NCBI GenBank assembly: GCA_019314105.1
Contig: JAFCZY010000027.1
Coordinates: 1 to 12,310, forward strand
Direction of reading: 5' to 3'
DNA: 12,310 bases
Source of the DNA: Deltaproteobacteria bacterium
GTDB taxonomy: Bacteria > Desulfobacterota > Desulfobacteria > Desulfobacterales > Desulfobacteraceae
Part shown: piece by piece, positions 1,161-6,494 of the stretch
How positions within the stretch are numbered: position 1 is the stretch's first letter
Layout of the letters: every line of letters starts with the position of its first letter
Notes under the pieces: model-generated
Told to the model about the DNA's origin: nothing
The model's database searches: none
Seen by the model: only the letters and a program-made list of their open reading frames with translations
Program-made: the position numbers and the translations under genes

Positions 1161-1253
1161 ATGGTGAGTATGGAAACCCAAATCTACAAACCCAGGTATT
1201 CAGTCAAAATCGTTACCGCCACATCACTTTTTGACGGTCATGAGCAGAAGTGA
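1161..1253 (+). pseudogene. icmF: Detached N-terminal piece of icmF (B12-ligand strand), ends at a premature stop
   Basis: AAAAGGAG (1151-1158) precedes three in-frame starts: ATG 1161, GTG 1164 and ATG 1170. The last two have better spacing. The frame ends YSVKIVTATSLFDGHEQK and then TGA (1251-1253). The segment V-T-A-x-S-L-F-D-G-H-E is the first strand and DxH cobalamin-ligand motif that opens every IcmF protein I know, with the histidine at 1239-1241 being the lower axial ligand. In the family about 14 further residues (the first helix) lead to A-E-V-I-H-L-G-H-N-R-S. Here that last motif appears at once but in another frame. The piece is thus the true beginning of icmF, cut off from the rest by an apparent out-of-frame deletion. 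The stop overlaps the GTG at 1250 (GTGA), so coupled restart of translation is possible. Confidence 0.75.
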
Positions 1254-4200
1254 TTCATATCGGTCATAACCGGTCTGCAAAAGAAGTCGTGGATGCCGCG
1301 ATAGAAGAAGATGCACAGGGTATTGCCGTATCCAGTTACCAGGGCGGACATGTTGAATATTTTAAGTACATGGTGGATCTCTTAAAAGAAAGAAGTGGTT
1401 CACATATTAAGATTTTTGGCGGCGGCGGCGGCGTTATTATTCCTTCGGAAATGGATGAACTGCATGCCTATGGCGTGACACGGATTTATTCTCCTGAAGA
1501 TGGAGCAAAAATAGGACTTCAGGGAATGATCAATGATATGATGCGGTCTATGGATGCCCCTTCGGTTGATTATGATCATCTTGATTATGAGAGTCTGGAT
1601 ATTGATAATAAATATGTGACAGCAAATTTTATTTCTGCGGTTCAGGAGGCTAAGGCGAACAATCAGGAGGAATTTGAAAAAATTATTTCAAAGATTTCCA
1701 AAGTTGCAGACCAAAAGAATGTTTCCATCATTGGATTAACCGGAACCGGCGGTGCAGGCAAGTCGTCTTTGACAGATGAATTGATTATCAGGATTTTGCA
1801 CGATCTTAAAGATGTCAATGTTGCCATTATTTCCTGCGATCCGTCCAGACGGAAAACAGGCGGTGCCCTTCTGGGTGACAGGATCAGGATGAATGCCATA
1901 GACACAGATCGTGTCTATATGCGGTCTCTTGCAACCAGACGATCCCAGACAGAGCTTCCCGAGGCGTTGCCGGATGCCATTAATGTGGTGAAGGCGGCGG
2001 GGTATGATATTGTTTTGGTCGAAACTGCCGGTATTGGCCAGGGGGATTCAAGAGTAGTCGATCTGGTGGATATGTCCATCTATGTCATGACAGCAGAATT
2101 TGGCGCTCCCTCCCAGTTAGAAAAAATAGACATGCTGGATTATGCCGATATTGTTGTGGTGAACAAGTATGAGAAAAGGGGCAGTGAAGATGCATTAAGG
2201 GATGTGCGGAAACAGGTCCAGAGAAATCGAAAGGCCTGGAATATGGATCCAAAAGATCTGCCGGTATATGGTACCATCGCATCCAAGTTTAATGATGATG
2301 GCATTACCGCTTTTTATCATGGCCTTCTGGATCTTATTGCAGAAAAGAAAAATATTAAATATGAATCCGGCATTCCAAGATCAGACAAAAAAGAATCCTC
2401 TTCAAAAACCATTATTATTCCGGGAGAGAGAACCCGATACCTTGCCGAGATTGCCGATACGGTAAGAGAATACCACAAAACAACCGAAGAACAGTCTGAA
2501 GCCGTACGAAACCGGTGGCATTTGATTGAGGCGTCAAAAACCATGGAAAATATGAGTCTTGATCAACTTCCGGATGTTCTGGGAAAATTTAAGGAGGCAG
2601 TTGCAGATGCTCAGTCCTTCGTAGAAAAAGAGACCGATAAGATCATCAATGAATTCAAAATCTGCAAAGAGATGTATAAGAAGAATGAACTGGTGTATCA
2701 TGTTCGGGGGAATGAATTCAGGGTGCCGTTATACAGCGAATCACTCTCTCATTCCAAAATCCCAAAAATTTCTCTGCCACAGTTCAAAGATCCGGGTGAG
2801 CAGTATAAGTGGATGAGAAAAGAAAACTTTGCAGGAAATTTTCCCTATACAGCAGGGGTATTCCCTTTAAAACGGGCAGATGAAGATCCCACCAGGATGT
2901 TTGCAGGAGAAGGTGGGCCTGAGGATACCAACCAGCGGTTTAAATTGCTTTCCGGCTCCTATCCTGCCAAGAGATTGTCCACGGCATTTGATTCGGTTAC
3001 CCTTTATGGGTTTGACCCGGATACCCGCCCGGATATATATGGTAAGATTGGAACATCCGGTGTGAGTATCTGTACCCTGAATGACGTTAAAGTACTGTAT
3101 GGCGGGTTTGATCTGTGTGCTCCCAATACGTCGGTCTCCATGACCATCAACGGCCCGGCTCCCATGATGCTGGCCATGTTTATTAATACGGCCATTACCC
3201 AGCAGATAGACAAGTTTAAAGAGGAAAAGGGTCGGGAGCCTTCTGAAGACGAGGCTGCAGAGATCAGGCAATTTGCCTTGTCCAATGCAAGAGGAACGAT
3301 TCAGGCAGATATTTTAAAGGAAGATCAGGGACAAAATACCTGTATTTTTTCCATTGAATTTGCCTTGAGAATGATGGGAGATATTCAGCAATACTTTATT
3401 GATCATCAGGTAAGAAATTTTTATTCGGTTTCCATTTCAGGCTATCATATCGCAGAGGCCGGGGCTAACCCCATCACCCAGCTTGCATTAACGCTGGCAA
3501 ATGGATTTACTTATGTGGAATATTATCTTTCCCGGGGGATGGATATCAATTCTTTTGCCCCCTCCCTTTCTTTTTTCTTCTCCAATGGGATGGACCCGGA
3601 ATATACGGTGATTGGAAGAGTTGCCAGAAGAATCTGGGCCGTGGCCATGAAATATAAATATAATGCCGATGAAAAATCCCAGAAGCTGAAATACCATATT
3701 CAGACGTCAGGTCGATCGCTGCACAGTCAGGATATCCAGTTCAATGATATTCGGACGACCCTTCAAGGGTTGTGCGCTATTTATGATAATTGCAACAGCC
3801 TTCATACGAATGCATTTGATGAAGCCATTACCACACCGTCTGCAGAATCGGTAAGGCGTGCCCTTGCTATTCAGTTGATTGTCAACCGAGAGTGGGGATT
3901 GACCAAGAATGAGAATCCGTTGCAGGGAAGTTTTATCGTGGATGAGCTCACGAATCTTGTGGAGGAGGCAGTCCTCATTGAATTTGAAAGAATTACGGAA
4001 AGAGGCGGTGTGCTAGGTGCCATGGAAACCGGATATCAGAGAGGCAAGATCCAGGAAGAGTCCATGTATTATGAATATTTGAAACATTCCGGCAAATACC
4101 CTCTGATCGGTGTGAATACTTTTCAGGATCCGGATGCTGATTATGCGGATATGGCAAATCATCTTGAACTTGCAAGATCGACGGATGATCAGAAGGATGC

Positions 4201-4396
4201 CCAGCTTGATAGGTTGAATACCTTTAAAGAAAGTCATCAGGATAAGTCTGAAGCTGCACTTGAAAAATTGAAACAGACTGCGCTGAGTGGTGAAAATATG
4301 TTTGAAACATTAATGGAGACTGTCAAGGTTTGTAGTCTGGGAACGATCACTCAGTCGTTGTATGAGGTAGGCGGGAAATACAGAAGGAATATGTAA
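1250..4396 (+). CDS. icmF: Isobutyryl-CoA mutase fused (IcmF), lacking its first B12-domain strand and helix in this frame
   Basis: This adenosylcobalamin enzyme interconverts isobutyryl-CoA and n-butyryl-CoA and carries its own G-protein chaperone. Domains in this 1048-residue frame are: the remaining B12 domain (1-100, with HIGHNRS and FGGGGGVI), a MeaB-like GTPase (about 155-370, P-loop GTGGAGKS at 165-172, ETAGIGQ at 258-264, base-specificity loop NKYE at 305-308), a linker, and the mutase barrel (about 515-1048). F551 and Q695 occupy the positions where methylmalonyl-CoA mutase has its carboxylate-binding Tyr and Arg. This pair marks butyryl/isobutyryl-CoA specificity. H733 (SGYHIAEAG) is the conserved active-site histidine. 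GTG 1250 is used because a TGA in this frame lies at 1241-1243. The start is not a natural N terminus, since the cobalt-ligand histidine lies upstream in another frame. Full family length would be about 1090. The gene leads the catabolic operon, 28 nt before the thiolase. Confidence 0.9.
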   Translation: MIHIGHNRSAKEVVDAAIEEDAQGIAVSSYQGGHVEYFKYMVDLLKERSGSHIKIFGGGGGVIIPSEMDELHAYGVTRIYSPEDGAKIGLQGMINDMMRSMDAPSVDYDHLDYESLDIDNKYVTANFISAVQEAKANNQEEFEKIISKISKVADQKNVSIIGLTGTGGAGKSSLTDELIIRILHDLKDVNVAIISCDPSRRKTGGALLGDRIRMNAIDTDRVYMRSLATRRSQTELPEALPDAINVVKAAGYDIVLVETAGIGQGDSRVVDLVDMSIYVMTAEFGAPSQLEKIDMLDYADIVVVNKYEKRGSEDALRDVRKQVQRNRKAWNMDPKDLPVYGTIASKFNDDGITAFYHGLLDLIAEKKNIKYESGIPRSDKKESSSKTIIIPGERTRYLAEIADTVREYHKTTEEQSEAVRNRWHLIEASKTMENMSLDQLPDVLGKFKEAVADAQSFVEKETDKIINEFKICKEMYKKNELVYHVRGNEFRVPLYSESLSHSKIPKISLPQFKDPGEQYKWMRKENFAGNFPYTAGVFPLKRADEDPTRMFAGEGGPEDTNQRFKLLSGSYPAKRLSTAFDSVTLYGFDPDTRPDIYGKIGTSGVSICTLNDVKVLYGGFDLCAPNTSVSMTINGPAPMMLAMFINTAITQQIDKFKEEKGREPSEDEAAEIRQFALSNARGTIQADILKEDQGQNTCIFSIEFALRMMGDIQQYFIDHQVRNFYSVSISGYHIAEAGANPITQLALTLANGFTYVEYYLSRGMDINSFAPSLSFFFSNGMDPEYTVIGRVARRIWAVAMKYKYNADEKSQKLKYHIQTSGRSLHSQDIQFNDIRTTLQGLCAIYDNCNSLHTNAFDEAITTPSAESVRRALAIQLIVNREWGLTKNENPLQGSFIVDELTNLVEEAVLIEFERITERGGVLGAMETGYQRGKIQEESMYYEYLKHSGKYPLIGVNTFQDPDADYADMANHLELARSTDDQKDAQLDRLNTFKESHQDKSEAALEKLKQTALSGENMFETLMETVKVCSLGTITQSLYEVGGKYRRNM

Positions 4397-4424: not shown

Positions 4425-5600
4425 ATGAACAAAGCAGTCATTGTCAGTGCAACACGAACCCCTTTAGGTAATTTTGGCGGAACCTTAAGCAAAATCGGTG
4501 CAACAGACCTTGGGGCGCATGTGATAAGAGAAGCCATTACAAGGGCGGGTATTGAGGATAAAGAGATCAATGAGTGTATCATGGGTATGGTCCTGCCCTG
4601 CGGGTATGGCCAGAACCCGGGAAAGCTTGCTGCGGTTAAAGCGGGGTTGCCCTGGGACGTTGAATCCATTACAGTGAATAAAGTCTGTGGATCATCATTG
4701 AAAGCGGTCATGCTGGCAGCCCAGGCCATTCAGTGCGGGGATGCTGATGTGGTGGTTGCAGGCGGTATGGAAAATATGAGCATGGCCCCCTATTATATGG
4801 ATAAGGCCAGATGGGGCCTTCGCATGGGGCCGGGTAAAATCGAAGATCATATGGTCCATGACGGTCTCTGGGATGTGATCAATGATTTTCATATGGGCAT
4901 GTCCAATGAGCTGAGTTCTGAAAAATGGGAAATCTCAAGAGAAGCTCAGGATAAATTTGCGGCCCAATCTTATATAAGAGCCAATGCAGCTATTGCCCAA
5001 GGCCGGTTTAAAGATGAAATCGTACCCGTGGAAATTCCTCAGAGAAAGGGTGATCCTAAGATTTTTGATACAGATGAATGCCCCAAAGAAACAAGCCTTG
5101 AATTCCTTTCAAAGATGAGACCCGTTTTTAAAAAAGATGGGGTGGGAACGGCCGGGAATGCATCCGTTATCAGTGATGGCGCTTCAGCCCTGGTTGTTAT
5201 GAGTGAAAAAAAAGCCAGGGAACTTGGGTGTACAATCATGGCTACCATTGGTGCCCAGGCCTCCTACGGTATTGATATGAAATATGTTTTAATGGCACCC
5301 ATTTATGCTATTCCCAAAGTATTGAAAAAAGAGGGTCTTACTATTTCAGATATTGATTTATTTGAAATCAATGAAGCTTTTGCCGGAAGCTCGACAGGTA
5401 TTAACAGAGTGTTGGAACTGGATCCTGAAAAAGTAAATGTGAATGGCGGCAGTGTCGCTCTGGGTCATCCTATCGGCGCATCCGGTGCTAGGGTATTGAC
5501 CACCTTATTGCATGAAATGGAAAAAAGAGATATAAACAAAGGCCTTGCGTCTCTTTGCCTGGGTGGCGGAGAAGCTGTTGCGCTTGTCGTTAATAGATAA
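4425..5600 (+). CDS. Acetyl-CoA acetyltransferase (thiolase II type)
   Basis: This 391-residue thiolase has the usual family length. The nucleophilic Cys88 lies in NKVCGSSLKA, the NEAFA motif at 316-320, His348 in GGSVALGHPIGASG and the general-acid Cys378 in SLCLGGGEA, so the active site is complete. It cleaves acetoacetyl-CoA (or a short 3-ketoacyl-CoA) with CoA to acetyl-CoA in the cytoplasm. The residues seen do not allow separation of acetoacetyl-CoA thiolase from a broader 3-ketoacyl-CoA thiolase, but the company of IcmF and a 3-hydroxybutyryl-CoA-type dehydrogenase favours the C4 substrate. AAGGAG (4409-4414) lies 10 nt before the ATG. It is 28 nt downstream of icmF and 42 nt upstream of the dehydrogenase, in one apparent operon. 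Confidence 0.93.
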   Translation: MNKAVIVSATRTPLGNFGGTLSKIGATDLGAHVIREAITRAGIEDKEINECIMGMVLPCGYGQNPGKLAAVKAGLPWDVESITVNKVCGSSLKAVMLAAQAIQCGDADVVVAGGMENMSMAPYYMDKARWGLRMGPGKIEDHMVHDGLWDVINDFHMGMSNELSSEKWEISREAQDKFAAQSYIRANAAIAQGRFKDEIVPVEIPQRKGDPKIFDTDECPKETSLEFLSKMRPVFKKDGVGTAGNASVISDGASALVVMSEKKARELGCTIMATIGAQASYGIDMKYVLMAPIYAIPKVLKKEGLTISDIDLFEINEAFAGSSTGINRVLELDPEKVNVNGGSVALGHPIGASGARVLTTLLHEMEKRDINKGLASLCLGGGEAVALVVNR

Positions 5601-5605
5601 AACGG

Positions 5606-5627
5606 GGGGACAGGCTTGCCTGACCCC
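5606..5627 (+). repeat. GC-rich REP-like hairpin between thiolase and dehydrogenase genes
   Basis: GGGG (5606-5609) pairs with CCCC (5624-5627) and CAGG (5611-5614) with CCTG (5619-5622), with one A-A mismatch and a CTTG loop. It is the most GC-rich short stretch in this AT-leaning operon. No T-run follows, and the AAGGAGG of the next gene starts 5 nt later, so it is not a terminator. Its GGGG-ACAGG...CCTG-A-CCCC shape resembles repetitive extragenic palindromes that bacteria scatter between genes. Only a genome-wide search would tell. Confidence 0.5.
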
Positions 5628-5642
5628 ATTCAAGGAGGAATA

Positions 5643-6494
5643 ATGGAAGTAAAGAAATTTGGTGTTATCGGGTCCGGTCAGATGGGCAATGGTATTGCAC
5701 AGGTTGTGGCCGCAAGCGGCCTTGAAGTCGTCATGAGTGATATTAAAGAAGAATTTTGTAAAAATGGGATGGCAACGATTTCAAAAAACCTTGATCGGAT
5801 GGTAAAAAAGGAAAAAATATCCGAGGCGGATAAAGCCGCTATCCTTGGAAGAATTACTACGACTACTGATTTAAAGGATATGGGATCGGTTGATTTTGTT
5901 GTTGAAGCTGCCGTGGAAAGAGAAGATCTGAAATTTAAAATTTTTGAAGATCTGGATAAAATATGTCCGCCTGAAGTTATTTTGTCCACCAATACCTCTT
6001 CCATTCCCATTGGAAGAATAGCCGCCAGAACATCCCGTCCGGATAAAGTGATCGGTATGCATTTTATGAACCCGGTTCCTGTGATGAAACTGGTTGAAGT
6101 TATTAAAGGTCTGGCCACTTCAAGTGAGACATTTGATATCACATGGAAACTTTGCCAAGACTTTGGAAAAACCCCTGCAGAGGCCAATGATTTCCCCGGG
6201 TTTATTGCCAACAGGATATTGATGCCCATGATCAATGAAGCGGTTTTCTGCCTCTACCAGAGTGTGGGAAAACCCGAAGATATTGATACGGTTATGCGGC
6301 TGGGTGCCAACCATCCCATGGGTCCGCTGGCTCTGGCAGATCTCATAGGGCTGGATACCTGCCTTGCCATCATGGAGACATTGTATGACGGTTTCAAAGA
6401 TTCAAAATACAGGGCCTGCCCGCTTTTGAGAAAATATGTGGAAGCCGGCTGGCTTGGAAGAAAGACGGGTAAAGGGTTTTATGATTACAAATAA
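5643..6494 (+). CDS. hbd: 3-hydroxybutyryl-CoA dehydrogenase
   Basis: This 283-residue NAD(P)-dependent dehydrogenase oxidises 3-hydroxyacyl-CoA (probably 3-hydroxybutyryl-CoA) to the 3-keto compound. The Rossmann fingerprint GVIGSGQMG is at residues 7-15. The catalytic set known from the family is complete: Ser119 (STNTSS), His140 (GMHFMNP), Glu152 (LVEVIKG) and Asn190 (PGFIANR). The C-terminal helical domain carries NHPMGPLALADLIGLD and ends with the usual KTGKGFYDY. ATG 5643 was chosen because AAGGAGG (5632-5638) lies just before it and the protein then begins with the standard VKKFGVIG. The in-frame TTG at 5616 lies inside a hairpin and would add nine unrelated residues. Length and layout match the single-domain bacterial Hbd rather than the large fused FadB type. 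Confidence 0.93.
   Translation: MEVKKFGVIGSGQMGNGIAQVVAASGLEVVMSDIKEEFCKNGMATISKNLDRMVKKEKISEADKAAILGRITTTTDLKDMGSVDFVVEAAVEREDLKFKIFEDLDKICPPEVILSTNTSSIPIGRIAARTSRPDKVIGMHFMNPVPVMKLVEVIKGLATSSETFDITWKLCQDFGKTPAEANDFPGFIANRILMPMINEAVFCLYQSVGKPEDIDTVMRLGANHPMGPLALADLIGLDTCLAIMETLYDGFKDSKYRACPLLRKYVEAGWLGRKTGKGFYDYK

Follow-up and report, generated by a model that had tools for sequence, protein, structure and literature searches.

An apparently split icmF gene in a draft genome related to Desulfobacula is probably a local assembly error

The window, which is the whole stretch of DNA analysed here (contig C321 of the draft genome G000, 12,310 bases), carries the icmF gene in two pieces lying in different reading frames, and judging from sequence comparisons this split is very probably a local assembly error in a fragmented draft. 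The initial annotation had put forward two readings, an artefact and a real event; the former is favoured because a near-identical whole protein (P0002) is found elsewhere and because the draft holds other frame breaks of 26-53 nt, including one in the only dsrA found, and the latter is favoured less. The draft consists of 2,703,728 bases in 478 contigs, is 90% complete, is related to Desulfobacula and was very likely assembled from a metagenome.

On the + strand of the window the genes follow the order TetR-family regulator, icmF, thiolase, 3-hydroxybutyryl-CoA dehydrogenase and a peptidase-like gene, and the opposite strand encodes a response-regulator-like protein together with genes resembling those of a branched-chain amino-acid transporter; several of the family scores lie below the curated cut-offs. 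The features around the split are:

400 to 1059, + strand: TetR-family regulator gene upstream of icmF, intact, 91-92% identical to G025, G006 and G011
1161 to 1253, + strand: short N-terminal frame of icmF, MVSMETQIYKPRYSVKIVTATSLFDGHEQK, with the DGH motif, ending at the stop TGA 1251-1253
1243 to 1244, + strand: junction at which 43 nt of the relatives are absent, from the alignment with relatives
1244 to 4396, + strand: body of icmF in the other frame (AEVIHIGHNRS...), listed as a 1048-codon ORF from GTG 1250 and matching NF045497
4425 to 5600, + strand: acetyl-CoA acyltransferase (thiolase) gene, intact, in the same order in G025, G006 and G011
5616 to 6494, + strand: 3-hydroxybutyryl-CoA dehydrogenase gene, intact, in the same order in G025 and G006

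Decay of the whole neighbourhood was considered and rejected: the remaining genes covered by the comparison are intact, and their order is kept in G025 and G006 and, in G011, up to the end of its contig. This comparison was made through the relatives' frames of at least 150 aa, leaving out the gene cut by the left edge of the window. Upstream of the TetR-family gene, positions 169-188 and 338-360 both contain GAGCGCTC, which by eye looks operator-like.

As printed, the first frame of icmF opens with ATG at 1161 (or at 1170). The histidine codon CAT (1239-1241) is followed by the two bases GA (1242-1243) and directly by the alanine codon GCA (1244-1246), from which the downstream frame is open to 4396. 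Every coordinate that the initial annotation had given for the split was checked against the sequence and proved correct, and so was the 43-nt size that it gave for the gap: in the DNA alignment exactly 43 nt are absent at 1244 with respect to the loci of G025 (L118), G006 (L120) and G011 (L121), whose IcmF proteins are 91-92% identical to that of the window. Its estimate of about 14 missing residues needs a small correction, since the missing stretch corresponds to D25-G39 in the numbering of P0002, that is, 15 residues less 2 nt that are still present. Apart from this gap, the window has no uncompensated frame change with respect to the same three loci.

The 1048-residue body scores 1799-1801 bits against NF045497 (IcmF; cut-off 1500) and P0002 scores 1868 bits against the same model. 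Models of MeaB, which represent the GTPase domain, match within residues 120-417 of the body and mutase models within 507-1047, so that a MeaB-like GTPase domain and a mutase barrel lie on one chain. P0002 has the DGH histidine and the next helix of the B12-binding domain in a single chain, and the window does not. We take the DGH histidine to be the cobalt ligand of the IcmF family. A word search of the available parts of PMC10481361 and PMC9974510 did not locate this role, and the domain layout of IcmF is described in these parts. The known fused isobutyryl-CoA mutase/GTPase (NF045497) has a solved structure, 4xc6, with which residues 8-1089 of the whole relative P0002 align; by comparison, helix 1 of the B12 domain is missing from the printed gene of the window, where the DGH motif is in a different frame. 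A predicted model of the B12 domain of L008, whose best structural matches are solved IcmF chains, places a helix at residues 25-37 and a strand at 41-46 (30-row alignment A1; mean pLDDT 88, falling to 69 in residues 21-30). The gap covers this predicted helix, in keeping with the earlier remark that a whole helix is gone, and a protein translated from the printed split sequence would have a B12 domain without its first helix.

The whole form of the gene is found very close to the organism of the draft. P0002 is a complete protein of 1089 aa in which 1047 of 1048 residues are identical to the body encoded in the window, and its first 24 residues (METQ...DGH) are those of the short frame. It belongs to a cluster of two member sequences and four contigs, the longest of 48,975, drawn from the sources jgi, lgn and ena. 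The whole icmF gene is thus present in a nearly identical organism. In the protein collection searched, the 1048-aa form is listed once (P0001, from a contig of 12,310 bases) beside the whole form. The spacing after DGH is normal in all 109 relative loci fetched (100 by motif and 9 read directly), which comprise the best 80 of at least 591 stretches in one search and only the best matches in another, some of them being one contig taken from two collections. It is also normal in 117 of the best 120 of 7999 scored proteins; the other three are the window's own protein, P0105 with an in-frame repeat and P0112, which starts downstream. Relatives sharing the split, which the initial annotation had named as favouring a genuine split architecture, are absent among the 109 loci, all of which carry the segment, and a split architecture of the whole lineage was consequently rejected.

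Two further anomalies were seen in this gene family. In the IcmF entry P0105 five residues, HDAAI, are repeated in frame at the corresponding position behind DGH, and the C-terminus is unrelated; this entry probably reflects another assembly or frame error. In G013, a draft of the same genus, the icmF matches fall in pieces on C317 and C205, in different frames and with one stop; this gene may be broken too, at other places.

The same loci bear on the suggestion of the initial annotation that the mutase might need a split form with a GTGA-coupled restart. In such a form the DGH histidine would sit on a peptide of 30 residues, and translation restarting at GTGA would give the 1048-residue body. 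The overlap of GTG 1250-1252 with the stop TGA 1251-1253 of the first frame is what such a restart would use, but none of the 109 fetched relative loci shares the split, and the suggestion gains no support from them. Moreover, according to the model helix 25-37 would be absent from both pieces and the body would start inside strand 41-46, and in the normal frame the GTG simply encodes a valine, residue V42 in P0002. A genuine split IcmF is therefore highly improbable, and that the pieces would form a working mutase is very unlikely, at an even lower level. Scarcely credible in the same degree is a variant in which one strain would have a real split and the restarted body would be a B12-independent GTPase-barrel protein with another role. 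Inspection by eye also led to the rejection of programmed frameshifting across 1239-1253: no slippery heptamer was seen there, and a shift would leave the helix missing.

A different possibility is that the 43 nt were really lost, recently and in one strain. IcmF would then be dead or truncated at its N-terminus in that strain, and sister strains would still have the gene. The flanks of the junction are otherwise clean, as the match of 1047 of 1048 residues to the whole form indicates, and six other contigs of the draft are free of any break of at least 20 nt, both of which agree with such an event. It is nevertheless unlikely, and ranks second after an assembly error: the draft has further breaks of the same size class, including the one in the only dsrA found, and the copies differ in four of its six duplications, unlike what a fresh duplication in one cell would leave. 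Deletion between short direct repeats was examined by eye with L008 as the long form and was rejected, there being 0 bases common to both ends of the gap.

The breaks elsewhere in the draft come from aligning ten of its contigs as DNA to the relatives, over 102,434 bases (for C284, the first 20,000 bases only). Within the relatives' genes six uncompensated events of at least 20 nt were found: -43 in the window, +32, +52 and -26 on C284, +53 on C263 and +31 on C7. These events, of 26-53 nt, fall in four of the ten aligned contigs and in none of the six repeat-free ones; C284, C263 and C7 had been picked for split matches or repeats. The -43 holds against three relatives; the comparisons with G025 and G006 give +32 and -26, those with G025 and G011 give +31, that with G025 gives +52, and +53 comes from G025 alone. 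At two of the sites G006 gives smaller values (+25 for +52 and +10 for +31). In C283, C253, C3, C5, C6 and C291 no break of at least 20 nt occurs over about 50 kb, only events of 1-7 nt; these contigs were already known to be free of close repeats, so that only deletions could be tested there, and deletions like that of the window are not everywhere in the draft. When relatives were compared with one another, no break of at least 20 nt appeared in 26 + 18 comparisons, many of which are the same pair taken in both directions, and the small events measured 1-10 nt. The sites outside the window that lie on aligned contigs are:

L124 (C284), 629-2425: methylmalonyl-CoA mutase-like gene with two breaks with respect to G025, +32 and an exact 52-nt tandem duplication
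L124 (C284), 11139: indolepyruvate:ferredoxin oxidoreductase alpha-like gene, 26 nt absent with respect to G025 and G006
L165 (C263), 516-614: sigma-54-activator-like gene with a 53-nt duplication whose copies differ at 2 bases, with respect to G025 only
L132 (C7), 2788: exact 31-nt tandem repeat within a gene
L132 (C7), 4702-5050: contig end that repeats an earlier stretch with a spacing of 211 and 6 differences

For the mutase-like gene of C284 no near-identical whole copy was found among the 120 listed proteins, the best matches being at 97% to its middle piece and at 85% to its C-terminal piece. The most telling of the further breaks was read from L123 itself, on C322, which is outside the alignment with the relatives. 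A 46-nt duplication, with 2 bases differing between its copies, divides dsrA there into two frames that overlap (1223-1792 and 1737-2591). The gene dsrA encodes the alpha subunit of dissimilatory sulfite reductase and is needed by sulfate reducers, and for this reason its break is hard to take as biology. A search of the whole draft gave no second good dsrA match, although at 90% completeness a further copy could be missing; the other matches were a frame just downstream on C322, by its place probably dsrB, and a weak one on C330.

The form of the duplications also points to the assembly. On C322, on C263, on C284 with spacing 56 and on C7 with spacing 211, four cases out of six, the copies are not identical but differ at a few bases; those of 52 nt and 31 nt are exact. 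Joining contigs of close strains without merging them would be expected to produce such differing copies; a fresh duplication within one cell would not. In the C284 pair with spacing 56 the copies differ at 6 bases by script, some of them at the edge of the block, and the net insertion is 32; the repeated end of C7 has the look of strain variants put together at the end of a contig. When exact repeats of at least 20 nt within 300 nt were scanned, the draft gave 7 rows, representing 6 sites, in 197,598 readable bases (44 stretches, excluding the window); G025 gave a single site (4 rows, all from a 279-nt repeat) in 271,832 readable bases, and G006 and G011 together gave none in 58,635. This excess of 6 sites against 1 is modest (binomial P about 0.013, with nearby sites counted as independent). 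The window itself is free of close exact repeats. The -43 event shows no sign of strain mixture, which weighs against an artefact at this particular site.

Taking these observations together, an assembly error remains the preferred reading, and we infer that the assembler rather than the cell is the cause of the gap and of the other breaks. In the organism, icmF would be an ordinary single gene of about 1089 codons encoding a fused isobutyryl-CoA mutase. The assembler would have dropped 43 nt at one join, probably misled there by close strains or by weak coverage, and elsewhere in the draft it would have added 31-53 nt or dropped 26 nt in like manner. For metagenome-assembled genomes, the available part of PMC7111523 reports genes corrupted by local assembly errors, as well as duplicated sequence at scaffold joins, and it blames co-occurring close strains for fragmented assemblies. 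The draft resembles the cases in that part in its short unsupported stretches corrupting genes and in its duplicated sequence at joins; it differs in that the duplicated joins described there carry runs of N, whereas its own sites have none.

The split of icmF is not a trait of the lineage, as the comparison of loci indicates, because the relatives keep the segment and the near-identical P0002 is whole. The main value of the finding is a warning, since the draft holds several small frame-breaking changes that are probably errors. For this reason gene loss should not be concluded from its apparent pseudogenes, among them icmF, dsrA and the genes for a methylmalonyl-CoA mutase, an indolepyruvate oxidoreductase and a sigma-54 regulator.
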